Origin: Aedes albopictus
Lineage: Eukaryota > Arthropoda > Insecta > Diptera > Culicidae
Assembly: GCF_035046485.1 (NCBI RefSeq)
Contig: NC_085138.1
Location: forward strand, 368,035,238-368,099,237
Reading direction: 5' to 3'
DNA length: 64,000 bases
The translations under genes and the position numbers were made by a program. Under the pieces are notes generated by a model. That model had not been told where the DNA came from. It saw only the letters and a list, made by a program, of their open reading frames with translations, and searched no databases. Shown here in pieces: positions 6,375 to 58,895 of the stretch. The stretch's first letter is position 1, and each line of letters opens with the position of its first letter.

Positions 6375-6399
6375 TTAGTTAGTTGGAACAAACTTTTTA

Positions 6400-7390
6400 A
6401 CCCAGAAAAAGAGTATTTTAGGGGAAAATGGGGCGAAACGGGCAATTCCAGACTAACGCATAGCGCGAAGTGAATTCCATAGTATGCAAAGGTCGATTCT
6501 ACATCAGGAAAAAAATATTGGTTAGCTGCAATCAATTGAAACTATTTCTAAATCCAGATAATCTGTAGTTAAGGGGAAAATGGTGCAAAATGGGCACCAC
6601 CACCCAAAGACACAGAACGAGGTGTGCCCCAAAATATGCACCGGTTAATTCCACATCAAGTAAAAAATCATTGGTTAGCCGCAATCAGTTGAAACATTTC
6701 TTTAATTTAGAAAAATCGTTTTTTAGGGGAAAATGAGGTAAAATGGGTACTTCCAGTCAAAGACACAGATCGAGGTGCATCCCAAAGTATGCGCCGGTTA
6801 ATTCTACATCAGATTGAAAATGGTTGGTTAGCCGTAATCAGTTAAAACTATTTTTTTAATCCAGAAAAACAGTATTTATAGGGGAAAATGGGACAAAATG
6901 ACCACTTCCAATCAATTACACGGGTTGGGGTGTGCCTCATGAAATGTACCTGTCAATTCTACATCAAGAAAAACATGGTAGGTAAGCAGCAATCAGTTTA
7001 TTCTAATTTTTAATTCAGAAAAACAGTACTTTTAGGGGAAAATGAGCCAAAATAGGCACTTCCAGTCAATGACACACATCGAGGTGTGTCCTATAGAATG
7101 CACCTGCCAATTCTTCACCAAGAAAAAAATGGTTGGTTAGCCGAAATCAGTTGAAACCATTTTTTAATCCAGAAAAACAGTATTTTTTGGGGAAAATGAG
7201 GCAAAATGGGCACTTCCAGTCAAAGATACAGATCGTAGTATGCCTCATAGAATGCACCTGTCAATTCTACATCAATGAAAAATTGGTTGGTTAGCGGCAA
7301 TCAGCTGAAACCATTATTTAATTTAGAAAAACAGTGTTTTTAGGGGAAAATGGGGCAAAATGGACACTTACACTCAATTCCGGTGAATGA
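6400..7390. repeat. Seven tandem ~154-bp repeats
   Basis: The word ggggaaaatg starts at 6421, 6573, 6726, 6881, 7035, 7189 and 7343, spaced 152-155 bp. Each unit continues with a ...caaaatgggcacttccag-like segment, cacagatcgaggtgtg, attctacatcaagaaaa, ggttggttagccgcaatcag and ccagaaaaacagta. Units diverge by perhaps 10-20 percent and carry several indels, so this is an old array with no shared reading frame. Confidence 0.85.
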
Positions 7391-15975: not shown

Positions 15976-16596
15976 TATTTTATTAAGGAGGTCTCTCATG
16001 GTAAGTAAGACGGGAAATGATAAAACAAAGAACATTCATGATGCCATGGCAATGCGTATACCTTTCATCGCTCCATAATGTTGACGTTTAACGTAGGTGA
16101 AAATGAATTCCAATTTGCATGCGTACATTTATTACAAACCCCGTGACGACCAAAGCGTGCTGCACTGCCATTTTCCCATTTCTATGATGAGGAAATTCCC
16201 ACAGAAGTGCAGAACCATTCCTTCCCCAACGTTTCTCTGGGAGCTCGTTGATTTCCTATAGGGGTTGTAAATAAATCAAGACAAAACAACACCCAGCCCG
16301 CCAGGATGGAAATGTACTTTTAATTGGAAACAAACATGTTCATTTGCATACGGATGGACCTGACCTTGCCCCATATAGCTATGCCCGTCCAATTTACGCC
16401 TGCTGAGCTGAGCCGAAAGGGATTCATTTCTTTTCCTCCCGGGACGTGTTGCTACTGCATACAATACTGTGGTCCGGTTCGGAAGTTCGTGCTTCACGCC
16501 AATCCCGTGGCGCCCTGACTACGCAACCTGTTGCATATTCATCGGCCTACGGCATGGAATTTGTAATTCTTGGATTGTGGAAAACACTGACCGACG
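15976..16596. other. 5' flank of the ion-channel gene
   Basis: This is single-copy-looking DNA with more balanced composition than the repeats to its left. It should hold the promoter and 5' UTR of the gene starting at 16597, but I see no unambiguous TATA box or initiator, and a non-coding first exon further upstream cannot be excluded. Open frames antisense here lack domain features. Confidence 0.4.
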
Positions 16597-18366
16597 ATGA
16601 CGACGACATCAGAAACGATTCGACCGTCGCGAGAAATGGAGCGCTCGAAAGTTCAGCTGGCGTCTGCTGGAGCCAAGGAGCTGTTCCTGGAGTATTGTAG
16701 CAATAGTTCGGTACACGGAGTTCGATATTTCGGATGCCGCGAACGATCGCTATGTGAAAAGTTCTGGTGGGTGGTTGTGTTTGTCCTTTCGGTGGGAAGT
16801 TGTGTGATGTTGATCCTGAAAACGTACCAAAAGTGGGACCAAACACCGGTGATTGTGAGTTTTAACGAAAAATCTACTCCAGTGTGGCAGATTCCGTTTC
16901 CGGCGGTGACCATTTGTCCGCAGACCAAAGTTAAAAGTGAAATTTTGAACTTTTCTCGAGATTTTGGAGAGTTCATCAACATGGACTCTGATGAAGCAGG
17001 AGATTTCAACCGAACAGACTACCTGTTAACGATGATGCAGCTATGTGAGAGGACGTTTTACACCATCGTATTGAGAGAAGCACACTCGCTCCCTAATAAA
17101 GCCAGTCACCAAAGTTATGCCTCGATTGTCCGCGAAATGTCTCTTTCAATGTACCAGATGATGGAATATTGCATGATCCGAAGTGAACTCAAATTTTGTG
17201 AGGACATGTTTAGTCACACTATGACCGAAGAGGGCATCTGCGTGAGTTTTAACCTTCTATCCGCTGCAGAGTTGCTCCGCACCGATGTTATCCAGACGGC
17301 GGATCCGTATTTGTCGGAACATCATAAAGCTCCCCACTGGACGCTTGAACAAGGATACTCTCCAGAGGCAACGCTCAGTTCATACCCCTATCGAACTCTT
17401 GGACCAGGCTACTCCGCAGGCCTTTCCCTACTGCTGCTGTCCAGTAACCATGATCTGGACTATCTTTGCCGCGGACCAGTACAAGCTTTTAAAGTTCTAC
17501 TGCACTCCTCCGCTGAGTATCCCCAGGTTTCCCAACGGTTCGTCCACGTTCCAGTGGATCAAGAAGTGACCATCGCCGTAAAACCACAAATGGTCACAAC
17601 AACTGAGGGACTTCGCAGCTACACCCCAGAACGTCGCCAGTGCTTCTTCAACAACGAACGGTACCTCCAGTTCTTCAAAATCTACACCCAAGACAACTGC
17701 GAACTGGAATGCCTCACAAACTACACTCTTCAACGCTGCAATTGTGTCAAATTCTCCATGATGTACTCCAACGGCACCCCAGTTTGCGAAACCAATCAAA
17801 TCTATTGCATGCTTGATGCGGAGAACGATCTTCTGGAGATGGACCTGCTCAGCCATCAGGATCAGCAGGCAAACTTCCGAGCTCAGTGCAATTGCCTACC
17901 GGCGTGCACTTCCATCCAGTACGACGCGGAAATCACGCAAACGGACTTCGACTGGCAGAAGTGGAGTCAGGCCATCGAGCTTCCTCTCAATAGCACAACA
18001 GGGTAAATTCCGTAAATTCGATTGATGACGAACGCAAAAGTCAACCATTTTCTCTCGCTCGATTTCAGAATGCACGTGGCCCGACTGGGAATCTACTTCA
18101 AGGAGGCACAATTCATGACCTCGAAGCGAAGCGAGCTGTACGGGTTGACTGATTTCCTGGCCAACTGTGGAGGCTTGCTGGGGCTGTGCATGGGCGTCAG
18201 TTTGCTGAGTTTGGTGGAGCTGTGTTACTTTTGTACGGTGCGTCCCTTTTCGCTGTGGAGGAAGCAGAAACGTGCCGAAGTGGATGCGAAAAATTTGAAA
18301 TATGACGAAGTGCCGGGAATAAGTTTACTATCGATGTCGATGAAAGGTGATAAGGATTTACAGTGA
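16597..18366 (+). CDS. ppk: Pickpocket-family DEG/ENaC sodium channel subunit (two exons)
   Basis: The product is a plasma-membrane amiloride-sensitive-type cation channel subunit of the degenerin/ENaC family, the insect pickpocket branch, which serves in mechano-, chemo-, osmo- or pheromone sensing. Coding exons are 16597-18002 and 18069-18366. The intron has a GT donor at 18003 and an AG acceptor ending at 18068, and splicing restores the frame to give about 567 aa. Visible features are a His-Gly gating motif at residues 40-41, TM1 at about 57-77, the post-TM1 FPAVTIC motif at 101-107, a cysteine-rich extracellular domain (cysteines in CELECLTNYTLQRCNC and CNCLPAC), and TM2 at about 497-525 with the GxS selectivity filter (GVS, 511-513). 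No disabling mutation is seen. The first ATG is used; Met14 is an alternative start. The gene symbol denotes the family only, as the exact paralogue cannot be told. Confidence 0.93.
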
Positions 18367-21677: not shown

Positions 21678-24382
21678 TTATCTGGTAACGCGACTACTTT
21701 GGATTCTTCTAATGGCGATGTTGTGATGCATAATCGGGTCATGAACTATTCTTTGGACATAAGTTAGCGTCTGCAAATCGTGCAACGCTTTTATCGGTAG
21801 AAAACTATCCTCTTCTTTTGAGTATAACAATGTTGTAGAATACCAGTAGGGCTTGCGAAGAACTGCTTTAAGACACTGATTTTGCATTACTTGGAGTTCC
21901 CGCAGTGTCGATTTGCTGGCCGAACCCCAAACAGCTACCAAGTATTGAAGTCTTGAGTGGATCAACGAATAATACAGCTGCTTCATCCATTTCTCAGGGA
22001 TAAACCACGACACTTTCCGTAGGATGCCACAGAGAGAGAGCTGAGTTTCTTCTTCAGGTGGGTAATGTGTCCAGACCAGCTCATTGTAGAGTCGATAATG
22101 AGCCCTAGGAATGTATGTTCCTCAACTTCCTCAACAATGCTGCCATGAACGTACAGTATTGGGTGAACAGGAACTCGTCTCCGCGGTGAATGTATGAACA
22201 TGCATTTTGTTTTCTTTAGGTTTAAAGACAGCTTATTTGCGCAAAAGTAGTCGTATAGCAAGTTATGATCGTATTCCATTTGCTGGTGAGTGATGCGATA
22301 TTGGGCATTTTTGTAGAATATCGACGTGTCATCCGCGAAAAGGCAAACTTTCCCTTTCAGCTCCAGGTTGCAAATATCATTGATGAACAACAAGAATAAT
22401 AAAGGGCCGAGGTTACTGCCCTGGGGAACTCCTGTTGGCACAGTAAGGATCCCGCTTGTACTATAGCTCCAATTGAGACGAACTGTTGACGGTTGGTGAG
22501 ATAGCTTTTCACAAGAGTTAAGGCATTTCCTCTTATTCCAAGCGAGTCCAGTTTTTTTTAATAGTAGCACATGATCAATAGTGTCAAACGCATTTTTAAG
22601 GTCAATGAATACTGCACCGACCATTTTTTTCGTGTCCAAAGCGTCATATATTTCTTCGACCAAATCACAAGATGCGCTCAACGTACTTGACCCTTTTCTG
22701 AAGCCATAGGTACTGATGCTTTGATAGAAGATCGAATCGAATGGCATAATTTATACTCCGAGATGCAAGTAGTTTTTCTAATATTTTGTCTAGAACTGAT
22801 AAACAAGAAATGGGCCTGTAATTGTTCAGTTCTTTGACATCGCCGGATTTGAAAATTGGTTTTACTTTGGCAATTTTCAAACAATCAGGAAAATGGCCGG
22901 TTGATATCATTTCGTTGAAAACATCAGAGAGGAGAGGTGCAAATATGGAATGATGAAATTTAACAAATTTAGCAGGAATCATGTCGGGACCTGAAGATTT
23001 CTTTTCGTTTAATCCATTTATAAGCGTGATTATTTCAGCGGTTGTCGAAGGCGAGAGAAATATCGATGACGGGTGGTAGTTTATGGTTCCAAAGCGTTCT
23101 ACATCTCCTGAACCAGGAATTCCTGCTGCTAAGTTTGCTCCAATATTGCAGAAAAATTAATTGAATGCAGAACAAATTTCTGCCTCATCAGTCAATAACA
23201 CACCATCTTTTAAAATGCGGCTAGGCTTATCATTCTTCTGCTGGTTACCAATCACTTCATTGACTACTTTCCATGCATTCCGTTGCGACGCTTTTTCAAT
23301 TATGGTGTGATAGTAGTTTCGTTTAGCCATCGTTTTCATCTTGCAAAGCAATTTTGACACGTGATCCAATAGATCTGATGTATGTTGATCATTAGGGTGT
23401 CTTCTATGCCTCTTTAAAAGGCGGTCCTTCATAGTGATTAGCTTCCATAGATCAATTGTCATCCAGGGACAGTGCTCTTTCAACTTTACCTCAACGGAGA
23501 CAGTTTTTGTGCATTGCGAGAGACATATACGATAGCACTCAGTCATATGGGCTAGCTTGTCACTGGCTAACATGCTTTCAGGAAGGGACTCGAAGACAGA
23601 AACAAATAGTTCACTTAATCGTGCATGATCCACAATTTCCTTCTGTAATGTGCGAGTTGTAGAAGCACACGCAAAATTGAATGTCGATACAATCAAACAA
23701 TGATCGCTTACATCATTTTTAATCGTTTCATTTACTACTGTGTTGGTCAAGTTCTCCGAACAAATGACATTGCTACTAGACGGTCTGGTAACATGCGAAT
23801 TAGTGACTATTGCATTGTACGAAGTTAATAGTCGATAATACTCGCGTACAATGTTATTTGAAAGCAGGTTCGCAGGTACATTCATGTCTCCGACAATAAC
23901 ACATTCATCTCCCTTGCTTACAGTCGATAGCATATCCTCTACTTCATCAAGAAACCCTCTTGCCCCGAACGATGGAGGCCTGTAGACAGCGTGAAAGTTG
24001 ATTCGCTTCCCAGAAGAAAGTAGTTGGCAATGGATGTGATGGAATCCCTCAACAAGTCTATTCTGGCATACTTCGACGATCAATCCATCCCGCAAGAAAA
24101 CCGCTAACCCTCCATGCGACTCCTCCCTTGAAGAGAAAATACCAGTATGTATATCCATCCAGCTTATATATCCTTGTTCTATCGCTTTTCACCCAGGTTT
24201 CACATACAACGACAACGCATTCCACAGCTTTGTAGCAGTTCACCAATACAATCGAACTTTACAAGGTCATTCAAACCTCGGATATTCCACTGAAGTATTT
24301 TCAGTGAATTAGGGCGACCAGCATTCTCTTTATTATATTCAACCCAATCTGTGATACAATCAAACTTATTGCTAGAAAACAT
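21678..24382 (-). pseudogene. CR1/L2-like ORF2: endonuclease plus reverse transcriptase (frameshifted)
   Basis: The N-terminal APE-type endonuclease shows LKILQWNIRG near the start, CETWVKSDRTRIY, VIVGDMNVPANLL and the SDH catalytic motif (NDVSDHCLI). The linker and reverse transcriptase follow: NNYRPISCLSVLDKILEKLL, motif A VFIDLKNAFDTIDH, motif B GVPQGSNLGPLLFLLFIND, motif C FADDTSIFY, and LGLIIDSTMSW. At least four frame changes (near 24200, 24150, 23155 and 22745-22980) break it. The catalytic Asp pair is intact. It lies 42 bp downstream of ORF1. Confidence 0.85.
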
Positions 24383-24423
24383 TGCGAGTTATAAATCAAA
24401 CATCAGAAACAATCAAATCTCGT

Positions 24424-25469
24424 TTAACGTTTTTGTGCCGGCTTTTCTGGTGACGTTGTTTGTTGACGCTTTAGGTTCCTACGTTGCAGCATTTCCACAT
24501 CACTCAGTCGCCGTATGACCTCAACCTTCGAATTGTCTCCTCTCTTGACCAGCACCGCTCCATGACGTCCTGGCCACACGTACTTTAAGTCCACCTGCTT
24601 CTGCACTTCGCGAACCTCTTTCAGCAGATTTATCCCATAGGCGGTGAGCTCATCGCGCAGTAAAACTTTGCCAACTCCGAGGGTAGCATCAATGGCTGAC
24701 AGTAGCAGGGGTCCATGGGTCTTCTTTTTGGCTATCAGTTCCTCTTTGTGAGTTTCATCGGCAAATACGACCTTGATAGGCGGTGATTTCGTGTCTTTGA
24801 ATGACTGGTCTTTGGATACGATACGCTTGGCGTCCAGCACTGCATCATCCGGTAGGTCGCAATCGAGCACCGTAGCTATTTTTCTGACGATCTGCACAGA
24901 CGATTCATATTTAACCATTGGAACTCCAATGATAACTGGGTTTTTACAGCTCGTTTCTTTTCATTCGGTCCACCTTCAATTCCAGTTGCTCCACAGTTGA
25001 CGATGTAGCTCGTTGATCACTCTGCAACCATTCATACTTCTTCTTCAATTCGATCTGCTCCCGTTGGAAAGTTTTCATCTCCTCCATCATAGTGTCCAAT
25101 TTGCCAGATAAGAAGTTGTGAAACTTCTCAAGTTCAGCAATCGTTGTTCTTACAGCATGCATTTCCGCTCTCGTTTCCCTGACTTCTGCTAAAAACCTTA
25201 CGAACTTCCGAGAGGACTTCAGAATCCATTTCTGATTGTTATGAAGATGAACGGTGTAGCTCCTTGCAGTCCTCAGAACAGTAGTATGTTTCTGCACGTA
25301 GCTTCCGAACTGCGCTCCCACTGATGTTCTTACAATTCAAGTGCTCACTTTTGCGGCAATAACCACATACCACTAGCCTGCGTGGATCTTTTTCTTCTCT
25401 GCGGCAGATCACACAAAAAGACACCTTTTGTGACATCAACAATTTGGATATCACGTACGAACCAGGCAC
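24424..25469 (-). pseudogene. CR1/L2-like ORF1 with PHD-type zinc finger, coiled coil and FP-like domain
   Basis: The order on the - strand is as follows. First, a C4HC3-type finger (CVIC, CGYC, HLNC, CSEDC spacing) at about 25430-25260, of the PHD kind found in ORF1 of CR1-group elements. Second, a coiled-coil-prone stretch rich in Glu, Leu and Lys (about 25200-24950). Third, a C-terminal domain of about 160 aa containing VVFADETHKEELIAKKK and GINLLKEVREVQKQVDLKY, resembling the FP/RRM-like RNA-binding domain of insect retrotransposon ORF1 proteins. Two frameshifts, near 25250 and 24930, separate the three parts. The inferred role is RNA binding and chaperoning of the element's own transcript. 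Confidence 0.75.
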
Positions 25470-25670
25470 GGGATGACAGAATCATACAGAAACGTATTAA
25501 CACCAGCACAACACGCAGATAAAGATGACAAGCTATACACACGTTGGTGAACAGACAATAGATGGATCATACATACAATTGCTTTGCACGAATGGCTATA
25601 GTTACCGGACCGCTAGAGATAATCGGTCTTTTGACGATATCCAAACTAGCGTGGGCGGAGAAAACGCGTC

Positions 25671-26062
25671 TGTAGGATTTCACTATCAAAAGTAAATAAT
25701 AAACACCATTTCTTTTTCCAATTTATAAATATATTTTTTATCACTTCTAAAACACTCCATTCACTACAACATCATTCTTGAAACTCTCTCCTATTCAACT
25801 CGCTCAATCGTTCATGCCAATCCTCTTTCTCTTTCTTCCCTTTTCTCGTTCTACTTCGTCACGGTCTCTTTCCTTTTCTCCCGTCAATCAGCGCTCAAGC
25901 TGAGAGTAGCATTTCCAAGCTCGCTTTTCGGCTGTCACAAGCATTGAAGTGGGATTTCGGTATGCATGCAGTTTCCCAACGCACACACTGATAGAAATTG
26001 TTATGTGTCTTCCAAATTGTCATTCATTTAAATTTTATGATTATTCACGCCCTACTTCTACA
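25671..26062 (-). repeat. 3' LTR of the satellite-bearing element
   Basis: This is a 392-bp terminal repeat with TG...CA ends and 5-bp inverted tips (TGTAG/CTACA). It matches the copy at 37069-37460 except at 25788. Read on the - strand it contains a TCAGTGTG initiator-like word about 75 bp from its 5' edge, and an AT-rich 3' part. Confidence 0.93.
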
Positions 26063-26077
26063 TCCTTTCCCTCTTCT
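26063..26077 (-). other. Polypurine tract of the LTR element
   Basis: On the - strand the sequence agaagagggaaagga is 15 purines in a row and directly abuts the LTR. It is the expected plus-strand primer for reverse transcription and fixes the element's orientation as -. Confidence 0.8.
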
Positions 26078-26379
26078 ACTCCTGATTAAGTTTATTTTAA
26101 CATAATTAATATCATCATGAAAAGCAAATATTTACTAAATTATTCTACATATTGCGCACGTGTAATATGACGGAAAAATTCTAAAAAGATAAAAAGAAAT
26201 TAATAATGTTAATAAATACTTACCATAGATTTCTTTCATTACGATTTTGTGCTATTATTCGTATTGACCTGAAAAATGGAAAAAAAAACCTCAAACAACA
26301 CAATGAGGAAAAAACCTTGACGAGTTCAATTCAAATTGCACATTTTCACGTAACAAACACATTCCAATTATCCACTTAG

Positions 26380-29300
26380 AACATGATGGAGCTTGTCAGG
26401 CTCCAAATGTTACTTTCAAACGGTCATATCAGAAATAAATGATCAGCCAGCCAAATTCAGTACCTCTTTACATCAAATAATCATCTTCAGTACCACTATG
26501 TTTAAAACAATGCTTTCTTGGATGGAGCTTGCCAAGCTCCAGAAGATTCCGTAAGCAACAAAATCAGAAAATAACTACAACAAGCTTAAAATCAACATTG
26601 CTTAACTTATACTATCTTTCCAATAATTTTTAAATTCAATGTCACTTCATCCATTCAATTTTCCCTGCTTGGACACAACTGATTTTGATCATGCTTTCTT
26701 GGATGGAGCTTACCAGGCTCCAGAAGATTCCCACAAGCAACAAAATCAGAAAGCAACTACAAAAGTTCAATTCAACATTGCTTTACATATTCTATCTTTC
26801 TAATAATTTTTAAATTCAATGTCACTTCATCCATTCAATCTTTCCTGTCTGAACACAACTGATTTTGATCATGCTTTCTTGGATGGAGCTTACCAGGCTC
26901 CAGAAGATTCCCGCATGCAACAAAATCAGAAAACAACTACAACAAGTTCAATTCAACATTGCTTTACATATTCTATCTTTCCAATAATTTTTAAATTCAA
27001 TGTCACTTTACCCATTCAATCTTTCCTGTCTGAACACAACTGATTTTGATAATGCTTTCTTGGATGGAGCTTACCAGGCTCCAGAAGATTCCCGCAAGCA
27101 ACAAAATCAGAAAACAACTACAACGAGTTCAATTCAACATTGCTTTACATATTCTATCTTTCTAATAATTTTTAAATTCAATGTCACTTCATCCATTCAA
27201 TCTTTCCTGTCTGAACACAACTGATTTTGATCATGCTTTCTTGGATGGAGCTTACCAGGCTCCAGAAGATTCCCGCATGCAACAAAATCAGAAAACAACT
27301 ACAACAAGTTCAATTCAACATTGCTTTACATATTCTATCTTTCCAATAATTTTTAAATTCAATGTCACTTTACCCATTCAATCTTTCCTGTCTGAACACA
27401 ACTGATTTTGATAATGCTTTCTTGGATGGAGCTTACCAGGCTCCAGAAGATTCCCGCAAGCAACAAAATCAGAAAACAACTACAACGAGTTCAATTCAAC
27501 ATTGCTTTACATATTCTATCTTTCTAATTACTTTTAAATTCACTGTCACTGCACACATTCAATCTTTCCTGTTTGAACACAACTGATTTTGATCATGCTT
27601 TCTTGGATGGAGCTTACCAGGCTCCAGAAGATTCCCGCAAGCAACAAAATCAGAAAACAACTACAACAAGTTCAATTCAACATTGCTTTACATATTCTAT
27701 CTTTCTAATAATTTATACATTCACTTTCACTGCACACAATCAATCTTTGCTGTCTGAACACAACTAATTTTGATGATGCTTTCTTGGATGGAGCTTACCA
27801 GGCTCCAGAAGATTCCCGCATGCAACAAAATCAGAAAACAACTACAACGAGTTCAATTCAACATTGCTTTACATATTCTATCTTTCCAATAATTTTTAAA
27901 TTCAATGTCACTTCATCCATTCAATCTTTCCTGCCTGGACACAACTGATTTCAATCATGCTTTTTTTTTTTGGATGAAGCTTTCCAGGCTCCAGAAGATT
28001 CTTGCAAGCAACAAAATCAGAAAATAACTACAACAAGCTTAAAATCAACATTGCTTTACTTATCCTATCTTTCCAATAATTTTTAAATTCAATGTCACTT
28101 CATCCATTCAATCTTTCCTGCCTGGACACAACTGATTTCGATCATGCTTTTTTTTGGATGGAGCTTACCAGGCTCCAGAAGATTCCCACAAGCAACAAAA
28201 TCAGAAAACAACTACAACAAGTTCAATTCAACATTGCTTTACATATTCTATCTTTCTAATAATTTATACATTCACTTTCACTGCACACATTCAATCTTTC
28301 CTGTCTGAACACAACTAATTTTGATCATGCTTTCTTGGATGGAGCTTACCAGGCTCCAGAAGATTCCCGCATGCAACAAAATCAGAAAACAACTACAACG
28401 AGTTCAATTCAACATTGCTTTACATATTCTATCTTTCCAATAATTTTTAAATTCAATGTCACTATACCCATTCAATCTTTCCTGTCTGAACACAACTGAT
28501 TTTGATAATGCTTTCTTGGATGGAGCTTACCAGGCTCCAGAAGATTCCCGCAAGCAACAAAATCAGAAAACAACTACAACAAGTTCAATTCAACATTGCT
28601 TTACATATTCTATCTTTCTAATAATTTTTAAATTCACTGTCACTGCACACATTCAATCTTTCCTGTTTGAACACAACTGATTTTGATCATGCTTTCTTGG
28701 ATGGAGCTTATCAGGCTCCAGAAGATTCCCGCATGCAACAAAATCAGAAAACAACTACAATGAGTTCAATTCAACATTGCTTTACATATTCTATCTTTCC
28801 AATAATTTTTTAAATTCAATGTCACTATACCCATTCAATCTTTCCTGTCTGAACACAACTGATTTTGATAATGCTTTCTTGGATGGGGCTTACCAGGCTC
28901 CAGAAGATTCCCGCAAGCAACAAAATCAGAAAACAACTACAACGCGTTCAATTCAACATTGCTTTACATATTCTATCTTTCTAATTATTTTTAAATTCAC
29001 TGTCACTGCACACATTCAATCTTTCCTGTTTGAACACAACTGATTTTGATCATGCTTTCTTGGATGGAGCTTACCAGGTTCCAGAAGATTCCCGCATGCA
29101 ACAAAATCAGAAAACAACTACAACGAGTTCAATTCAACATTGCTTTACATATTCTATCTTTCCAATAATTTTTAAATTCAATGTCACTTTACCCATTCAA
29201 TCTTTCCTGTCTGAACACAACTGATTTTGATAATGCTTTCTTGGATGGAGCTTACCAGGCTCCAGAAGATTCCCGCATGCAACAAAATCAGAAAACAACT

Positions 29301-32300
29301 ACAACGAGTTCAATTCAACATTGCTTTACATATTCTATCTTTCCAATAATTTTTAAATTCACTGTCACTGCACACATTCAATCTTTCCTGTTTGAACACA
29401 ACTGATTTTGATCATGCTTTCTTGGATGGAGCTTACCAGGCTCCAGAAGATTCCCGCATGCAACAAAATCAGAAAACAACTACAATGAGTTCAATTCAAC
29501 ATTGCTTTACATATTCTATCTTTCCAATAATTTTTTAAATTCAATGTCACTATACCCATTCAATCTTTCCTGTCTGAATACAACTGATTTTGATAATGCT
29601 TTCTTGGATGGAGCTTACCAGGCTCCAGAAGATTCCCGCAAGCAACAAAATCAGAAAACAACTTCAACGCGTTCAATTCAACATTGCTTTACATATTCTA
29701 TCTTTCTAATAATTTTTAAATTCACTGTCACTGCGCACATTCAATCTTTCCTGTTTGAACACAACTGATTTTGATCATGCTTTCTTGGATGGAGCTTACC
29801 AGGCTCCAGAAGATTCCCGCAAGCAACAAAATCAGAAAACAACTACAACGCGTTCAATTCAACATTGCTTTACATATTCTATCTTTCTAATTATTTTTAA
29901 ATTCACTGTCACTGCACACATTCAATCTTTCCTGTTTGAACACAACTGATTTTGATCATGCTTTCTTGGATGGAGCTTACCAGGCTCCAGAAGATTCCCG
30001 CAAGCAACAAAATCAGAAAACAACTACAATGAGTTCAATTCAACATTGCTTTACATATTCTATCTTTCCAATAATTTTTTAAATTCAATGTCACTATACC
30101 CATTCAATCTTTCCTGTCTGAATACAACTGATTTTGATAATGCTTTCTTGGATGGAGCTTACCAGGCTCCAGAAGATTCCCGCAAGCAACAAAATCAGAA
30201 AACAACTTCAACGCGTTCAATTCAACATTGCTTTACATATTCTATCTTTCTAATAATTTTTAAATTCACTGTCACTGCGCACATTCAATCTTTCCTGTTT
30301 GAACACAACTGATTTTGATCATGCTTTCTTGGATGGAGCTTACCAGGCTCCAGAAGATTCCCGCAAGCAACAAAATCAGAAAACAACTACAACGCGTTCA
30401 ATTCAACATTGCTTTACATATTCTATCTTTCTAATAATTTTTAAATTCACTGTCACTGCGCACATTCAATCTTTCCTGTTTGAACACAACTGATTTTGAT
30501 CATGCTTTCTTGGATGGAGCTTACCAGGCTCCAGAAGATTCCCGCAAGCAACAAAATCAGAAAACAACTACAACGCGTTCAATTCAACATTGCTTTACAT
30601 ATTCTATCTTTCTAATTATTTTTAAATTCACTGTCACTGCACACATTCAATCTTTCCTGTTTGAACACAACTGATTTTGATCATGCTTTCTTGGATGGAG
30701 CTTACCAGGCTCCAGAAGATTCCCGCATGCAACAAAATCAGAAAACAACTACAATGAGTTCAATTCAACATTGCTTTACATATTCTATCTTTCCAATAAT
30801 TTTTTAAATTCAATGTCACTATACCCATTCAATCTTTCCTGTCTGAATACAACTGATTTTGATAATGCTTTCTTGGATGGAGCTTACCAGGCTCCAGAAG
30901 ATTCCCGCAAGCAACAAAATCAGAAGACAACTTCAACGCGTTCAATTCAACATTGCTTTACATATTCTATCTTTCTAATAATTTTTAAATTCACTGTCAC
31001 TGCGCACATTCAATCTTTCCTGTTTGAACACAACTGATTTTGATCATGCTTTCTTGGATGGAGCTTACCAGGCTCCAGAAGATTCCCGCATGCAACAAAA
31101 TCAGAAAACAACTACAATGAGTTCAATTCAACATTGCTTTACATATTCTATCTTTCCAATAATTTTTTAAATTCAATGTCACTTTACCCATTCAATCTTT
31201 CCTGTCTGAACACAACTGATTTTGATAATGCTTTCTTGGATGGAGCTTACCAGGCTCCAGAAGATTCCCGCAAGCAACAAAATCAGAAGACAACTTCAAC
31301 GCGTTCAATTCAACATTGCTTTACATATTCTATCTTTCTAATAATTTTTAAATTCACTGTCACTGCGCACATTCAATCTTTCCTGTTTGAACACAACTGA
31401 TTTTGATCATGCTTTCTTGGATGGAGCTTACCAGGCTCCAGAAGATTCCCGCATGCAACAAAATCAGAAAACAACTACAATGAGTTCAATTCAACATTGC
31501 TTTACATATTCTATCTTTCCAATAATTTTTTAAATTCAATGTCACTATACCCATTCAATCTTTCCTGTCTGAATACAACTGATTTTGATAATGCTTTCTT
31601 GGATGGAGCTTACCAGGCTCCAGAAGATTCCCGCAAGCAACAAAATCAGAAGACAACTTCAATGCGTTCAATTCAACATTGCTTTACATATTCTATCTTT
31701 CTAATAATTTTTAAATTCACTGTCACTGCACACATTCAATCTTTCCTGTTTGAACACAACTGATTTTGATCATGCTTTCTTGGATGGAGCTTACCAGGCT
31801 CCAGAAGATTCCCGCATGCAACAAAATCAGAAAACAACTACAATGAGTTCAATTCAACATTGCTTTACATATTCTATCTTTCCAATAATTTTTTAAATTC
31901 AATGTCACTATACCCATTCAATCTTTCCTGTCTGAATACAACTGATTTTGATAATGCTTTCTTGGATGGAGCTTACCAGGCTCCAGAAGATTCCCGCAAG
32001 CAACAAAATCAGAAGACAACTTCAACGCGTTCAATTCAACATTGCTTTACATATTCTATCTTTCTAATAATTTTTAAATTCACTGTCACTGCGCACATTC
32101 AATCTTTCCTGTTTGAACACAACTGATTTTGATCATGCTTTCTTGGATGGAGCTTACCAGGCTCCAGAAGATTCCCGCATGCAACAAAATCAGAAAACAA
32201 CTACAATGAGTTCAATTCAACATTGCTTTACATATTCTATCTTTCCAATAATTTTTTAAATTCAATGTCACTATACCCATTCAATCTTTCCTGTCTGAAC

Positions 32301-34865
32301 ACAACTGATTTTGATAATGCTTTCTTGGATGGAGCTTACCAGGCTCCAGAAGATTCCCGCAAGCAACAAAATCAGAAAACAACTACAACGCGTTCAATTC
32401 AACATTGCTTTACATATTCTATCTTTCTAATAATTTTTAAATTCACTGTCACTGCACACATTCAATCTTTCCTGTTTGAACACAACTGATTTTGATCATG
32501 CTTTCTTGGATGGAGCTTACCAGGCTCCAGAAGATTCCCGCAAGCAACAAAATCAGAAAACAACTACAACGAGTTCAATTCAACATTGCTTTACATATTC
32601 TATCTTTCTAATTATTTTTAAATTCACTGTCACTGCACACATTCAATCTTTCCTGTTTGAACACAACTGATTTTGATCATGCTTTCTTGGATGGAGCTTA
32701 CCAGGCTCCAGAAGATTCCCGCATGCAACAAAATCAGAAAACAACTACAACGAGTTCAATTCAACATTGCTTTACATATTCTATCTTTCCAATAATTTTT
32801 CAAATTCAATGTCACTTTACCCATTCAAACTTTCCTGTCTGAACACAACTGATTTCGATCATGCTTTTTTTGGATGGAGCTTGCCAGGCTCCAGAAGATT
32901 CCCGCAAGCAACAAAATCAGAAAACAACTACAACGAGTTCAATTCAACATTGCTTTACATATTCTATCTTTCCAATAATTTATACATTCACTGTCACTGC
33001 ACACATTCAATCTTTCCTGTCTGAACACAACTGATTTTGATAATGCTTTCTTGGATGGAGCTTACCAGGCTCCAGAAGATTCCCGCAAGCAACAAAATCA
33101 GAAAACAACTACAACGAGTTCAATTCAACATTGCTTTACATATTCTATCTTTCTAATAATTTTTAAATTCACTGTCACTGCACACATTCAATCTTTCCTG
33201 TTTGAACACAACTGATTTTGATCATGCTTTCTTGGATGGAGCTTACCAGGCTCCAGAAGATTCCCGCATGCAACAAAATCAGAAAACAACTACAATGAGT
33301 TCAATTCAACATTGCTTTACATATTCTATCTTTCCAATAATTTTTTAAATTCAATGTCACTATACCCATTCAATCTTTCCTGTCTGAATACAACTGATTT
33401 TGATAATGCTTTCTTGGATGGAGCTTACCAGGCTCCAGAAGATTCCCGCAAGCAACAAAATCAGAAAACAACTTCAACGCGTTCAATTCAACATTGCTTT
33501 ACATATTCTATCTTTCTAATAATTTTTAAATTCACTGTCACTGCGCACATTCAATCTTTCCTGTTTGAACACAACTGATTTTGATCATGCTTTCTTGGAT
33601 GGAGCTTACCAGGCTCCAGAAGATTCCCGCATGCAACAAAATCAGAAAACAACTACAATGAGTTCAATTCAACATTGCTTTACATATTCTATCTTTCCAA
33701 TATTTTTTTAAATTCAATGTCACTATACCCATTCAATCTTTCCTGTCTGAATACAACTGATTTTGATAATGCTTTCTTGGATGGAGCTTACCAGGCTCCA
33801 GAAGATTCCCGCAAGCAACAAAATCAGAAAACAACTTCAACGCGTTCAATTCAACATTGCTTTACATATTCTATCTTTCTAATAATTTTTAAATTCACTG
33901 TCACTGCGCACATTCAATCTTTCCTGTTTGAACACAACTGATTTTGATCATGCTTTCTTGGATGGAGCTTACCAGGCTCCAGAAGATTCCCGCATGCAAC
34001 AAAATCAGAAAACAACTACAATGAGTTCAATTCAACATTGCTTTACATATTCTATCTTTCCAATAATTTTTTAAATTCAATGTCACTATACCCATTCAAT
34101 CTTTCCTGTCTGAACACAACTGATTTTGATAATGCTTTCTTGGATGGAGCTTACCAGGCTCCAGAAGATTCCCGCAAGCAACAAAATCAGAAAACAACTA
34201 CAACGCGTTCAATTCAACATTGCTTTACATATTCTATCTTTCTAATAATTTTTAAATTCACTGTCACTGCACACATTCAATCTTTCCTGTTTGAACACAA
34301 CTGATTTTGATCATGCTTTCTTGGATGGAGCTTACCAGGCTCCAGAAGATTCCCGCATGCAACAAAATCAGAAAACAACTACAACGAGTTCAATTCAACA
34401 TTGCTTGACATATTCTATCTTTCCAATAATTTTTCAAATTCAATGTCACTTTACCCATTCAAACTTTCCTGTCTGAACACAACTGATTTCGATCATGCTT
34501 TTTTTGGATGGAGCTTGCCAGGCTCCAGAAGATTCCCGCAAGCAACAAAATCAGAAAACAACTACAACGAGTTCAATTCAACATTGCTTTACATATTCTA
34601 TCTTTCTAATAATTTTTAAATTCAATGTCACTTCATCCATTCAATCTTTCCTGCCTGGACACAACTAATTTCGATCATGCTTTTTTTGGATGGAGCTTGC
34701 CAGGCTACAGAAGATTCCCGCAAGCAACAAAATCAGAAAACAACTGACCAGGCTCCAGAAGATTTCCGCAAGCAACAATATCAGAAAACAACTATGATAA
34801 GCTCAAATCCAACATTGCTTTACATATTCTATCTTTCAAATACTTTCAAATTCAATGTCGCTAAA
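26380..34865. repeat. 181-bp satellite array, about 46 monomers
   Basis: Monomers share landmarks in fixed order: tgctttcttggatggagctt, accaggctccagaagattcc, cgcaagcaacaaaatcag, gttcaattcaacattgcttt, acatattctatctttc, a block around taatttttaaattca, and caatctttcctgtctgaaca. Spacing is 181 bp in the left half. Edge copies (26380-26780, 27900-28160, 34490-34865) are the most divergent; the centre is nearly uniform. Repeated 61-88 codon frames arise only because the monomer is open in one frame. Since 181 is not a multiple of 3 they do not join, and I do not consider them genes. Confidence 0.95.
30771..34400. repeat. Dimeric higher-order repeat (363 bp) within the satellite
   Basis: Identical landmarks recur at 30771, 31134, 31497, 31860 and 32223, then 33312, 33675 and 34038: steps of 363 bp or a multiple. 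The dimer alternates a 182-bp type (cgcatgcaacaaaatcag, aataattttttaaattca, cactatacccattc, gataatgc) with a 181-bp type (cgcaagcaacaaaatcag, acaacttcaacgcg, cactgtcactgcgcac, gatcatgc). Irregular precursors occur at 28777, 29502 and 30046. Confidence 0.9.
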
Positions 34866-34927
34866 CACATTCTTTTCAACGCCCAATCCACGACCAACTT
34901 TCCTATTTAAGGTTTTTAGTCGTACTT

Positions 34928-35735
34928 CTTGACCCATCCGGGTCACAGTGCTCAGTTGGACACACTGACCAACTCCGATCTAGAATTGGATTTTAGACCT
35001 TCTTTTGATCCATCCGGATCTACGTCCAATGAAGCGACGACCAACTTTTCCGTTTCAGGTCTTAAGTTGAATTTCTTGAGCCGTCCGGGTCGCAGTGCTC
35101 AGCTTGGACACACTGACCAACTCCGATCTAGAGTTGGATTTTAGACCTTCTTTTGATCCATCCGGATCTACGTCCAATGAAGTGACGACCAACTTTTCCG
35201 TTTCAGGTCTTAAGTTGGATTTCTTGACCCATCCGGGTCTCAGTGCTCAGCTTGGACACACTGACCAACTCCGATCTAGAATTGGATTTTAGACCTTCTT
35301 TTGATCCATCCGGATCTACGTCCAATGAAGCGACGACCAACTTTTCCGTTTCAGGTCTTAAGTTGGATTTCTTGACCCATCCGGGTCGCAGTGCTCAGCT
35401 TGGACACACTGACCAACTCCGATCTAGAGTTGGATTTTAGACCTTCTTTTGATCCATCCGGATCTACGTCCAATGAAGTGACGACCAACTTTTCCGTTTC
35501 AGGTCTTAAGTTGGATTTCTTGACCCATCCGGGTCGCAGTGCTCAGCTTGGACACACTGACCAACTCCGATCTAGAGTTGGATTTTAGACCTTCTTTTGA
35601 TCCATCCGGATCTACGTCCAATGAAGTGACGACCAACTTTTCCGTTTCAGGTCTTAAGTTGGATTTCTTGACCCATCCGGGTCTCAGTGCTCAGCTTGGA
35701 CACACTGACCAACTCCGATCTAGAGTTGGATTTGA
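34928..35735. repeat. 148-bp satellite array, about 5.5 monomers
   Basis: Each unit contains cttgacccatccgggtc, agtgctcagcttggacacac, tgaccaactccgatctag, ttttgatccatccggatcta and cgacgaccaacttttccgtt. Equivalent positions fall at 35095, 35243, 35391 and 35539, exactly 148 bp apart, with only scattered substitutions. It is more GC-rich than the 181-bp array it adjoins and unrelated to it in sequence. The frame is not maintained across units. Confidence 0.93.
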
Positions 35736-35739
35736 CAAA

Positions 35740-37050
35740 TTAGACTTTGTATACTTTTCGAACAACAATCGTGGCCGACATTTTTTACTATAAATGACGC
35801 TGTTCATTTAATACAGATTTTTTTTTTGTTAAACATAATTCAAGTCATTTCATAAGTTAAAGCACTTACATGTTCTGAGGTAGGCATTTCATTGAGAAAT
35901 TCATCTTGATGCCACCAAGCCCATTAAAGCATCCAATTATTCTAAACAATATTTCTTCGGCATTTCTCTAATACGGTTCAATGAAATTTATCTCAACATT
36001 ATTTATTTTTCGTCAGATTCATATTTTCAGGAATTTTCAATCGCAAAATCTACACTATATTATGTTGAATCGTGAATACCTTAATATTTTTAATCAAGCG
36101 ATTAGCCCAGAAAAACTCGACAATTCTGAAAATGATGTAGATTACTGGGGATTACATGAAATTCGACTGCATACCACAAATAAATTTAAAATAATTTAAA
36201 AACTCGTCAAATAAAAAAAACACATTTTCTTTAATTTTAAGTCTTGAGTTGTACGGTCGCTTCTCATACCTTGCAGTAGATGTCAAAACAACATTAAATT
36301 TGATCGGAGAAATAGTAGTAGACGAATATTATTCAGAACAGAGGAACTCTGTTTGCAAAAATATTGTTCGTTGTGAAGATTTATAGATTCCGACGCAGAA
36401 AAATGATTAGGCTCATTTTCAGCGTAGGTGCATTATAAATGTTTGTTTACAATACAAAACTATCACCAAATGTGTACCTAACAACACAACGTAAAATATT
36501 TACCAGGACGTGGTCTGGTTTTATATCTGTGGCCCACGCAACTAATTTACGTGCAGGATTCTAAACGTATCACCGCAATATCTCTCACCTTTTTTTTTGT
36601 CCTGGATCACAATAAAAATCAATATAGAAAATCAATATAGAAAATATGAAAAATTACCTGTTCGAAGTCATAGATCTATGAAATAAAACGATAAACACAG
36701 ATATCTCAATCTCCTTCAACTTCATTCACATCATTCGGAACATCTCTATTCTCAGATCTCTATTTATCACTTTATCTCTGTGTCCAAACATCGGCACTAT
36801 GCGCGTAGTCGCACTCGTCTTGAAAACAATAAAATAAGACACCTTCGCTCCCCGGGTTGACTGAGGTTCGAAACTCACACCAAGGATCGCAAACGAAATC
36901 ATCAACACAACGCTTCACAACCGACACCATTTTCCTGCTGCCGTCTCCGGAGGCATGCTCTTCAACTCGGGCACAAGGCAAACACCACTTCAACAATCCG
37001 CCCTTCACTGGAATTCCACACTTATTTTAATAAAACTTTCCACTTCATAA
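35740..37050 (-). other. Non-satellite interior of the LTR element, with a 78-codon frame
   Basis: This AT-rich stretch lies between the satellites and the 5' LTR. Just after the primer site on the - strand, 37008-36772 is an open frame starting MKGGLLKWCLPCARVEEHAS with several cysteines and ending in a stop. It is placed where gag normally starts and may be a gag or leader remnant. I do not recognise a domain in it. The remainder (35740-36770) shows no coding signal. Confidence 0.4.
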
Positions 37051-37067
37051 CCTACCGTCATGCGCCA
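37051..37067 (-). other. Primer-binding-like site of the LTR element
   Basis: On the - strand, one base after the LTR, the sequence TGGCGCATGACGGTAGG starts with the TGG complement of a tRNA CCA end. The tRNA is not identified. Its position opposite the polypurine tract supports - orientation. Confidence 0.6.
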
Positions 37068-37068
37068 T

Positions 37069-37460
37069 TGTAGGATTTCACTATCAAAAGTAAATAATAA
37101 ACACCATTTCTTTTTCCAATTTATAAATATATTTTTTATCACTTCTAAAACACTCCATTCACTACAACATCATTCTTGAAACTCTATCCTATTCAACTCG
37201 CTCAATCGTTCATGCCAATCCTCTTTCTCTTTCTTCCCTTTTCTCGTTCTACTTCGTCACGGTCTCTTTCCTTTTCTCCCGTCAATCAGCGCTCAAGCTG
37301 AGAGTAGCATTTCCAAGCTCGCTTTTCGGCTGTCACAAGCATTGAAGTGGGATTTCGGTATGCATGCAGTTTCCCAACGCACACACTGATAGAAATTGTT
37401 ATGTGTCTTCCAAATTGTCATTCATTTAAATTTTATGATTATTCACGCCCTACTTCTACA
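37069..37460 (-). repeat. 5' LTR of the satellite-bearing element
   Basis: This is a 392-bp copy, identical to 25671-26062 except at 37186. It is followed immediately by the GCGTC target duplication at 37461-37465, and then by 5' UTR of the CR1/L2-like host element. Confidence 0.93.
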
Positions 37461-37594
37461 GCGTCCAGCGACGTAACTTGACTCAAGTAATGTTACAATG
37501 AATGTTGATTGAACGGTTGATTAGTTTTTCCAATGTCGTAGGCGATTTTCTGCTTAGCAGCTGAATGATGAGTAGTAAAGATGCACCAGTGCTG

Positions 37595-44049: not shown

Positions 44050-45285
44050 AGCCCAGCTGAGTAAACTGGCACAGCTAGCCAATAAGGTATGCCGTACGAA
44101 GCTTGAGATCCTAGAACTGAGTGAAGTTCGTTGGTTGAAATCTGGGGAACACAGACTGGCATCGGGTCAAATTTTGCTATACTCTGGCCTACGAAGCAAA
44201 TACGCTTCTCGTCACCGTGGAGTTGGTTTCCTGCTCAGTGGTCACTCCGACGCTGCACGGGAAGTAAGTACTAGCCTGGTACACGGTTTATATGGGAAAA
44301 TACAAAAAATGGAAAAACTCAAGTTCCTGTATACTTTTTGAGTTCCACTTTGGTCCCATATCAACTGTGCAAAATTTCAGATCGATCGGAAAAACTATAT
44401 TTTAGCGCCCGCCATTCTTAGTTTTTCATACGATTTACTATGGGGAAATTTTACTCCTGCAAAGAAAAATCGGTAGGAGTCACCCCTAGATCCCTAAAAA
44501 TAAGTCGACGAATGATTTCTGTAGAATACTTTACTAGGAATCAGACCTCCGAACACATCAAATCGATGCGGCGTTCGGGGAAAAAGTTATTAGGCCTCAC
44601 CCGGTCGATAAAATAACGAGATTTTATCATTTATTGTTATTCCTTACATGTTAAACAGCGTTTGCATGCCATTCGATTTTCAGTCAATAACTTTTTCCAC
44701 ATGCCTCAGATCGCTTTGCGGTCTTCGGAGGGTTGGTTCCTCGTAGAATTTCCAACAGAAATCATTCATCGATTTATTTTTAGGGGCTAAGGGGCAACCT
44801 GTGGCGATTTTTCTTTGAAAAAGTGATTTTCCCCATACTAAATCGTATGAAAACTTAAAATGGCTGGCGCTAAAATATAGTTTCTCCGATCGATCTGAAA
44901 TTTTGCACAGTTGATATGGGTCCAAAATGGAACTCAAAAAGTGTACAGGAGTAAAATGTCTTTTTGTGTCCCACGCTAGTAAGTACCTATTAATGAGAGG
45001 AGTATTGTAGCCAGATTCAGAACACTAGTGCGAAACCTTACGAATACCCAATGTTACGCGCCAGCCGATGCTACCGAAATGCAACAATAAGAGAACTTTT
45101 ACAGCAAACGGAATGCTGTCGTGAATAGTGAAAGGCTTTCCGTCGAGAAGCTGGTAAACAGTGCTGCAGATATTTCGGAAGATGAACGCGTAGAAGGTCA
45201 ATGATGCGCCATCAAGAACGCTTCCATCGCCTCCACCGGCGAGAATAATATAGGTGAGCTTCGTACTCAGAGAAAGCATTCATTT
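44050..45285 (+). pseudogene. RTE-like endonuclease fragment, split by a foldback
   Basis: Before the insertion the + strand reads AQLANKVCRTKLEILELSEV, RWLKSGEHRLASGQILLYSG and RGVGFLLSG. After it, at 44987, it reads PINERSIVARFRTLVRN, TQCYAPADATEMQQ, a stop, and ENFYSK. This is the N-terminal half of an APE-type endonuclease of the RTE kind found in many insect genomes. No RT follows; the sequence breaks off at about 45285 against an oppositely oriented relative. Confidence 0.7.
44272..44977. mobile_element. Foldback DNA element with 9-bp target duplication (MULE-like)
   Basis: The 9-bp word agtaagtac flanks the element at 44263-44271 and 44978-44986, and removing the insert rejoins an endonuclease reading frame. 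Ends are tagcctggtacac on the left and the complement of agcgtgggacac on the right. The arms carry the same blocks as 42000-42690 (ctgtatactttttgagttcc, catatcaactgtgcaaaatt, aactatattttagcgcc). A 9-bp duplication with long arms fits Mutator-like elements, though that assignment is tentative. Confidence 0.7.
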
Positions 45286-57512: not shown

Positions 57513-58895
57513 GGTGTCCGGCCGTTTGACCGAACGCCGTTTGGCCGAATGCCGTTTGGCCGAAAGTTTCATTTGGCCGAATGCCGTTTGGCCGAATTAT
57601 GATTGAAGGAATTCAGAGGTGAGGACAAACTTCGGGTAACATTCTTATTGCCAATGTGATCATCAGAAGTTTTTTCTTCCTTTGATCATATGCTAGGGTA
57701 ACCAATATAATTTGGACCCCCATATATTTTGGACCCCCTGGTTCGTATTTTCATAAATTTCACAGATTCAATGAAGAGATGACTTAAAATTTTTGAATCA
57801 TTCTCTAAATTAGATTGTTCTGCACGAGTAGCAATCATTTCCTCACCGGAAATATCATTAGTTGCCTTAAAATTAGTTTTTGTTTATCTCGTCATCCGTG
57901 CGAGTGTCGCGGCATGTTTACGTAGAGAAAGTGTGATGCTGGGCAAACTTGCAGATGTAAACAAAAACGTTTATCATTCTGGCGCATTTAATTCGCAAAG
58001 TTCATCTGATCATCCTTTGTCAATCAAGTAATTAGGATGCGATCCAGGATATTCAAGTGGCAGATTCTACGAAAATAGTTTCAAATGGGTTTAAACACCG
58101 GGTGTACAAAATATATACTTAAGAGGGTCCAAAATACATTGGGGTGTCCAAAATTGTGAAAACTGATGCTTCAAAAATCTGTTATTTCCATCAATTTTTC
58201 AGCCAGAAATGACCTTGTGGGTATTTTTGACGGACAGTGGAGGCTTTTACGGTCATACCAACATCATCACACGCTATGTCTGAACCTACAGATTATAAAA
58301 ATTGAACGTACATCGGGTTTCTTTCCATAAAACATCAGTATTCGAGCTATATTTTCATTTGCAGAAGGTTTCAAAATATTCTATCGGGGAAATTTTGATT
58401 TTTCCATCTTTTTGACCGTTTTTCATACAAATTTGCTTGAAATCCTCATTTTCGGTCAATTTCTCTCCCATACAAAATGTATGGAAAAATTTGCACCGAT
58501 AGAATATTTTAAAACCTTCTGCAAATGAAAATATAGCTTGAATACTGATGTTTTATGGAAAGAAACCCGATGTACGTTCAATTTTTATAATCTGTAGGTT
58601 CAGACATAGCGTGCATCATTATGTGTAACAGCCTCTGAGTCTGTTTGATTTGAGCTTCAATTCAAACTAATGTCCTCTAGGGGTCCAAAATTCGACCGTT
58701 ACCCTATTCTTTCTAGTTTAACTATTGAGGGAATCAGTTGGCATTGAAACTGTGCTTTTTTGTCTAAGATTTTTCCTTCTATGAATCATAGGCTGTTCTT
58801 CCGATTTATACTGATGTGGAGAGCAATGGCATGACTACTTGAGTACATCATTTATTTTTCAGCCAAACGGCATTCGGCCAAATGACCCGGAACCC
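57513..58895. mobile_element. hAT-like non-autonomous element with GCCGTTTGGCCGAA ends and 8-bp duplication
   Basis: The 8-bp word gtaaataa flanks it at 57505-57512 and 58896-58903. The left end has ggtgtccggccgtttgaccg, then three further gccgtttggccgaa-type units. The right end has the complementary ccaaacggcattcggccaaa and ccggaaccc. An 8-bp duplication fits the hAT superfamily. There is no transposase frame. Another element is nested inside. Confidence 0.65.
57694..58706. mobile_element. Nested element with TAGGGTAAC ends
   Basis: Ends tagggtaaccaatataattt (57694, continuing to ggaccccc) and the complement of tagggtaacggtcgaatttt are inverted. Inside lies a further foldback, 58245-58380 against 58495-58615 (ttctttccataaaacatcag against ctgatgttttatggaaagaa), so three levels are stacked here. 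Confidence 0.65.

Follow-up and report, generated by a model that had tools for sequence, protein, structure and literature searches.

Positions 25671..37460 of the window, i.e., the 64,000-nucleotide stretch of the Aedes albopictus genome analyzed here (NC_085138.1), contain an element, E1, that is very probably a copy of an A. albopictus non-autonomous long terminal repeat (LTR) retrotransposon family. The interior of this family consists mostly of two tandem arrays, one of which is built from a unit of the 148-bp type that is very probably under selection and most likely acts in cis.

The - strand of the element would be transcribed from the 5′ LTR, after which the RNA would be packaged by the Gag of a helper LTR element. 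Reverse transcription would be primed by a tRNA-Ser-like primer and integration would be accompanied by a 5-bp duplication. The arrays would be copied via RNA. Their copy number could shift when reverse transcriptase switches templates, or through unequal exchange where the element has inserted. Purifying selection would act on the 148-type unit, most likely as a cis-acting part of the element, its candidate functions being packaging or dimerisation of the RNA and regulation at the DNA level. The second array would vary in period from 136 to 181 bp around a conserved inverted-repeat core.

Anatomy of the Element

A sequence-only reading of the window had described two 392-bp LTRs with one mismatch, a GCGTC duplication, a polypurine tract (PPT) and a primer-like site in - orientation, and each of these parts was located. 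The LTRs, which lie on the - strand at 25671..26062 (3′ LTR in RNA sense) and 37069..37460 (5′ LTR), have TG..CA ends and are identical at 391/392 positions in an ungapped alignment. Flank comparison places the 5-bp target site duplication (TSD) GCGTC at 25666..25670 and 37461..37465. Read on the - strand, the 5′ LTR is followed, after one spacer base, by the primer binding site (PBS)-like TGGCGCATGACGGTAGG (37051..37067), which we take to be a near, although imperfect, complement of the tRNA-Ser 3′ end and of which variants adjoin other LTRs of the family. Next come a 1.3-kb non-coding leader (35734..37068, counted from the 5′ LTR/PBS to the array), the 148-bp array (34890..35733; 5.7 copies), which is the conserved array of the family, and a junction formed by a degenerate 181-type monomer (34746..34889), the part 34794-34889 of which is found at the same place in the related copies E2–E4. 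The 181-bp array (26510..34745; 45.4 copies) is the family's second array, and its unit contains TGGAGCTTRCCAGGCTCCA as an inverted-repeat core. This array is followed by the 3′ internal tail (26063..26509), which is present in E2–E4 too and includes a strongly diverged piece of a 181-type monomer (26289-26339; 77-79% to array monomers), by the PPT ggagtagaagagggaaagga (26063..26082), where the 25 bases adjoining the LTR are identical in E1–E4, and by the 3′ LTR. All these internal parts are on the - strand.

Together, the arrays account for 9.1 kb of an interior of 11.0 kb, not far from the 9.3 kb initially estimated. The non-array interior has no stop-to-stop open reading frame (ORF) of at least 100 amino acids, in agreement with the reported absence of gag and pol, and the ORFs listed within the 181-bp array simply track the repeat. 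E1 thus lacks the gag-pol of autonomous LTR retrotransposons. It is nevertheless an LTR retrotransposon by its direct LTRs with TG..CA ends, its short TSD, and its PBS and PPT beside the LTRs. With LTRs that are 0.26% apart, the earlier view of a recent insertion stands, and the data support a recent, non-coding LTR insertion.

The 181- and 148-bp units have nothing in common in blastn beyond words of chance length, in line with their earlier description as unrelated. Retrozymes are characterized by a hammerhead ribozyme in the LTR or in the unit. In 25600-37560, no Rfam family, the hammerhead families included, matches at E ≤ 1, so that E1 does not have the hammerhead of a retrozyme. Exact patterns of 31, 27 and 19 bases gave 0 matches in viral contigs.

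Tandem Repeats Finder reports the large array at a period of 181 bp, and at 363 bp as well. The 45 monomers extracted from it, 32 of which are distinct, differ on average by 6.1% at lag 1 and by 3.8% at lag 2 (median at lag 2, 2.2%), from which it follows that two monomer types, A and B, alternate in a higher-order arrangement. Block duplication has occurred too, as indicated by identical stretches that reach 566 bp. Both ends of the array fade into diverged monomer pieces, and two monomers, the first and an internal one, are 11% off the consensus. Judged from these sequences, the A and B types are very probably older than the insertion, since neighboring A and B monomers are approximately 6% apart and the first monomer deviates by 11% from the consensus, versus 0.26% between the LTRs. 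Dating of the array core by its private mutations (6 singletons/6169 bp) relative to the LTRs (1/784 bp) was dropped because the events are too few.

Inheritance and Re-expansion in Close Copies

Genome searches with the LTR and the two monomers, as proposed by the sequence-only reading, yielded 23 matches for the LTR (both E1 LTRs counted), at least 227 for the 148-bp unit and at least 647 for the 181-bp unit, and the LTR-bounded copies were listed with their TSDs and array lengths. Four LTR pairs at 95-100% identity delimit the complete elements E1–E4. E2 (C2:86.53 Mb) has 18.7 and 12.9 copies of the 181-bp unit with a 7.4-kb insertion between them, 11.7 copies of the 148-bp unit, no TSD and LTRs with 1/392 mismatches. 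In E3 (C2:386.87 Mb; TSD GGTAC; 2/392 LTR mismatches) there are 27.8 copies of the 181-bp unit, and 3.2 and 6.0 copies of the 148-bp unit on the two sides of a 2.1-kb insertion. E4 (C1:228.44 Mb; TSD CTCTA; 2/392 mismatches plus 7 gap columns) holds 9.7 and 7.5 copies, respectively. Tail, 181-bp array, junction, 148-bp array and leader have the same order in all four elements, and the LTR divergence between copies is 2.0-4.1%. A 5-bp TSD flanks five of the eight LTR-pair copies inspected (E1, E3 and E4, together with E5 and L028, which are described below); none was found at E2, E6 and the subfamily VII copy L056, the outer left end of which is undefinable.

Monomers of the 181-bp type were compared between these copies (45 from E1, 30 from E2, 27 from E3 and 9 from E4). 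E1, E2 and E3 have 14 polymorphic columns in common, 12 of which also vary in E4, and each pair of copies has 12-19 columns that are polymorphic with the same two alleles; for E1 and E2, about 4 common polymorphic columns would be expected by chance (34 × 20/181, from the counts). The nearest neighbors of a monomer lie solely within its own copy for 38/45 monomers in E1, 28/30 in E2, 19/27 in E3 and 0/9 in E4. Mean monomer divergence within a copy is 5.3% (E1), 4.4% (E2), 8.4% (E3) and 11.0% (E4), and 6.6-9.5% between copies. Because polymorphic columns are common to the copies, these comparisons support inheritance of a multi-type array, of which E1, E2 and partly E3 have since amplified their own subset, since nearest neighbors there are mostly from the own copy; E4, which has the shortest array, gives no such sign. 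The sequence-only reading had offered a choice between arrays that travelled inside packaged RNA and arrays that expanded very fast after insertion. Inheritance is upheld by the presence of the arrays in E2–E4 and by the common polymorphisms, and copy-specific re-expansion is upheld for E1, E2 and partly E3. This amplification may have preceded or followed the insertion.

It is extremely improbable that the arrays arose or expanded only after the single insertion of E1, as a one-off, or that they are an assembly artefact. Identical blocks within the array and own-copy nearest neighbors in E1 and E2 do speak for expansion within a copy, but E2–E4 carry both arrays at the same junctions elsewhere in the genome, as do diverged subfamilies. 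Moreover, monomer polymorphisms are common to several copies and monomer divergence is far above LTR divergence. A one-off event is refuted as the sole explanation and holds for part of the copy number.

Two observations were made at E2. The insertion that splits its 181-bp array (L021/L022) is a nested LTR element of 7.4 kb with identical 682-bp LTRs. Beside E2, at C2:86549701-86549783 (L029, positions 1-83), lies a 300-bp piece of a family LTR that is identical to the left LTR of E2 over that length and that ends in ATGGCGCAGTCGGTAGG, next to a repeat that is very abundant (40 scored of 1289 first-look candidates). This LTR with approximately 18 nt matching what we take to be the tRNA-Ser 3′ end looks like an integrated plus-strand strong-stop product, which would identify the primer. 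Its reading as an autonomous neighbor of E2 was dropped, the sequence past position 82 being the common repeat and the ORF list holding no long gag-pol-like ORF.

The Family Across LTR Subfamilies

E1 had been regarded as a single insertion with satellite DNA as its cargo, a view that was abandoned since the arrays recur throughout a large family. The listed matches of the 148-bp unit group into 32 places, three of which are one tandem segmental copy; these matches (C2:437941144, 437950773 and 437960402) are spaced at exactly 9,629 bp, a family member being part of the tandemly duplicated segment. The elements E5 (L026) and E6 (L027) have LTRs just 67-69% like those of E1 (blastn), together with a 147-bp array, full units of which are at 93-96%, and second arrays with periods of 145-150 and 137 bp that retain the first ~98 bp of the 181-bp unit. 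Their LTRs are 0/380 (E5; TSD CAGGC) and 2/382 (E6; no TSD) apart.

The leader side of the 148-type array was viewed at 21 loci (E1–E6, E8, L043–L055 and L085), and an LTR was called when the sequence aligned to a family LTR or when a PBS-like motif directly adjoined an LTR-type start. Twenty of these loci have an LTR and 19 a PBS-like motif (11 of the 13 within L043–L055), the loci without motif being L046, which counts as LTR-bearing by alignment, and L055. At L047, the LTR evidence consists of the start and the motif alone, its alignment to the E1 LTR not being above shuffles. On the other side of the 148-type array, the second array was found at 24 of 26 loci; it is missing at L075/76 and L077, has few diverged units at L066 and is short at L042 and L080. 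The two sets of loci are partly different and some loci were viewed on one side, L077, which lacks a second array, having its leader side outside the 21-locus set. Across the family, the period of the second array is 136-181 bp. Its core reads GGATTGAG..CTCAA at L056, L065, L067, L071 and L081, and is the E1 core or a close variant at the remaining loci where a core was found. A free-standing array was not demonstrated at any locus examined, in a set drawn from match lists that give minimum numbers and viewed in part on one side. Nor was the seeding of free satellites across the mosquito genome, as suggested earlier, demonstrated.

Derivatives of these elements occur as well. Solo LTRs of related subfamilies are flanked by 5-bp duplications at L010 (CTTTC), L012 (CTACG) and L013 (GTGGT), and L028 (C3:151831501-151834000) is a 1.17-kb LTR-LTR derivative without arrays, having TSD GTCTG and LTRs that are 1/380 apart. 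At C3:152637001-152651300 (L084, L076, L075 and L085), a truncated family member, consisting of a 148-type array, leader and LTR without second array, sits in the same orientation between a gag-like frame, recognized by eye, and a BEL/Pao pol ORF (Pfam Peptidase_A17). BEL/Pao was considered as helper since its pol lies beside a 148-type array (C3:152647), but this candidate was dropped; because the gag-like frame is on the far side of the LTR, the member is read as a truncated element within a BEL copy.

Conservation of the 148-bp Unit

Among 141 units from 16 loci, divergence between loci is 2-15%. Between subfamilies, divergence of the 148-type unit is roughly one-fifth that of the LTRs, with a ratio of 0.11-0.38 over 13 loci and a median of 0.20-0.22 over the sets tried, a ratio to be taken with caution as LTR distances above 50% are near saturation. 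In this comparison, subfamily VI is represented by the LTR of L085 and the array of another locus, L060, and V44, which has no full units, was omitted. The changes in the unit cluster in two spacers, and 115 of 145 columns are unchanged versus 89.9 expected, the maximum in 10,000 uniform draws being 101 (16 loci, 69 changes; tree and test are from the same data). As changes are unevenly spread and leave conserved blocks, the alignment points to purifying selection on the 148-type unit, to which exchange between subfamilies may contribute. A dimeric make-up of the unit, with two related halves, is not claimed, its local alignment score being 14 versus a shuffle maximum of 17.

Slow divergence could also reflect exchange instead of selection, if the unit were an independent satellite that was captured repeatedly, or if template switching in shared particles had swapped it among LTR subfamilies. 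The distances of unit and LTR are correlated over 13 loci (r 0.68; 0/5000 permutations), less strongly so once subfamily I is reduced to a single copy (r 0.42; 72/5000). When every subfamily contributes one copy, i.e., 8 loci, r is 0.32 (956/5000), which is not significant, and exchange of arrays between subfamilies is therefore possible. An additional hint of exchange comes from C1:227.55 Mb (L072), where the 148-type unit is nearest that of subfamily VII (5.7%), yet the second array is of the common type. In Culex, copies from different families can have the same repeat, according to PMC3286476. Nevertheless, capture or exchange as the explanation is rather unlikely: there is no demonstrated free-standing 148-type array among the loci examined, changes concentrated in spacers are not produced by exchange alone, and the four subfamily-I copies cluster by their 148-type unit.

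The arrays could also be neutral filler, i.e., repeats that accumulated and were tolerated after gag-pol was lost. Loss of coding capacity following repeat acquisition is raised by Marsano et al. (PMC3286476). Copy numbers vary, from 4 to ~25 for the 148 type and, in subfamily I, from 10 to 45 for the 181 type, and the array-less L028 exists. This explanation is quite unlikely, as both arrays are retained with their order unchanged in subfamilies whose LTRs range from 25% apart to no clear alignment, and as the 148-type unit is conserved in blocks.

Counter-Evidence and Possible Roles of the Arrays

Besides the non-significant 8-locus correlation, several findings weigh against a family that inherits its arrays via RNA and keeps one unit by selection. 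Within subfamily I, the raw ratio of 148-type to LTR divergence is 0.69-1.14, i.e., there is no slowdown, because within-array variation dominates. Monomers of E3 and E4 are as distant within their copy (8.4% and 11.0%) as from other copies (7.6-9.5%), and array lengths are from one assembly. The PBS-like sites differ among copies and are imperfect relative to what we take to be tRNA-Ser. Given L028, a requirement of the arrays for integration is not established and caution is called for in naming them essential, although L028 may alternatively have arisen by deletion after insertion. A helper or autonomous master copy with gag-pol was not found in a search that is incomplete, the leader sequence not being covered; nor were full-length gag-pol members without satellite, which the sequence-only reading had named as evidence for a one-off array or an assembly artefact. 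Finally, in the hairpins that the 148-type unit can form in RNA sense, 0/27 pairs are changed on both sides, and folding z is -1.20 for the 148-bp unit and +0.44 for the 181-bp unit.

These hairpins are four in number and are paired in 98.8% of cells, but shuffles are equally good. RNAalifold keeps three of them and replaces one, with 0/34 pairs changed on both sides; a fifth inverted repeat, across the unit boundary, is outside the counted structure. Because of the lack of covariation and the weak folding, RNA hairpins are not claimed as the cause of the conservation. RNA structure in the unit is possible but unproven; the short inverted repeats might just as well serve as DNA-binding sites.

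A DNA-level cis element, such as an enhancer or insulator, instead of an RNA signal, is a fair contender with a chance that we put below even; it would resemble the protein-binding sites that Drosophila gypsy has in tandem in its 5′ leader. The 148-type array adjoins the 5′ leader, its conserved blocks hold the short perfect inverted repeats GATCCATCCGGATC and GACCCATCCGGGTC, which would suit dimeric DNA-binding proteins, and RNA covariation is lacking. The gypsy insulator is also cited for such repeats in PMC3286476. However, the second array keeps its inverted-repeat core at ~0.6-3.8 kb from the leader, and a purely promoter-proximal role leaves this core unexplained. Somewhat less probable, and put forward tentatively, is that the 148-type array amplifies an RNA signal acting in cis for packaging or dimerisation, which would make the element an RNA parasite that competes for the Gag of its helper by means of a tandem signal. 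If so, the satellite array would be a means of parasitism rather than cargo.

Surroundings of the Element in the Window

On the - strand, frames at 21678-25336 resemble, by eye, a non-LTR retrotransposon and end ~330 bp before the E1 insertion site. A further tandem array with a period of 154 bp (6.4 copies, 77% matches) lies at 6394-7377, and no LTR-like pair surrounds it within the window. Long self-complementary stretches at 44325-44950 (77% over 641 bp) and 58270-58613 (84% over 354 bp) are possibly foldback or miniature inverted-repeat transposable element (MITE)-like sequences. The ORF at 16591-18003 has 100% identity to A. albopictus pickpocket protein 28-like.

Relation to Known Elements and Significance

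LARD and TRIM elements are non-autonomous LTR elements that have an LTR-PBS-PPT-LTR skeleton without gag-pol, the interior of TRIM being very short; the LTRs of LARD differ in size from those of the A. albopictus family. The family has the same skeleton and likewise no gag-pol, and L028 looks TRIM-like (for a TRIM element, see Cassandra, PMC7215508), whereas the A. albopictus interior is largely made of two tandem arrays. With its 11-kb interior, E1 is not a TRIM; among the copies seen, only L028, with 1.17 kb in total, fits.

The closest likeness in architecture is found in Culex quinquefasciatus, for which 38 gene-less LTR families with tandem repeats, apparently without master copies, are described by Marsano et al. 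(2012; PMC3286476). These cqUNK elements are mosquito elements without coding sequence, with LTRs more than 98% identical, a PBS (often Ser), a PPT and, where given, a TSD of ~5 bp. Their tandem repeats, with periods that include 144-179 bp, lie between the LTRs and make up to 95% of the element. E1 has each of these features, i.e., no coding sequence, LTRs above 98%, PBS, PPT, TSD and repeats between the LTRs, the likeness being assessed at the level of architecture. Unlike the A. albopictus family, in which two arrays are in fixed order across subfamilies, the Culex repeats vary among families and are not family-specific (PMC3286476). Passive dissemination of repeats by retrotransposition has been suggested there for cqUNK elements. 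Mag-lineage Ty3 elements of Culex (cqgypsy_24, 25 and 66) also have tandem repeats near the 5′ leader, but are putatively active and coding according to the same paper (PMC3286476).

In Lathyrus, satellites arise from arrays within Ogre elements (PMC7004042). These Ogre/Tat arrays are, as in A. albopictus, short tandem arrays inside LTR retrotransposons that spread with them and occasionally expand. The plant arrays differ in lying in a hypervariable 3′UTR downstream of gag-pol, and expanded arrays exist, as stated in the same paper (PMC7004042); in A. albopictus, the array near the leader is conserved.

Gene-less LTR elements with tandem repeats are thus already known from Culex (PMC3286476). 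In the open-access literature searched, judged by titles and the beginnings of abstracts, no paper was recognized as describing this family in Aedes. New are the evidence for inheritance of arrays with re-expansion, the fixed-order two-array design across LTR subfamilies and the signs of selection on one unit.

These findings bear on the spread of satellites and on the retention of tandem repeats by LTR elements without genes. Within a single genome, insertions of differing age, each bounded by LTRs, share the two arrays, which allows inheritance via RNA to be measured apart from re-expansion. Since the 148-type unit is conserved block by block, a satellite-like repeat becomes a candidate for a functional part of a retroelement.

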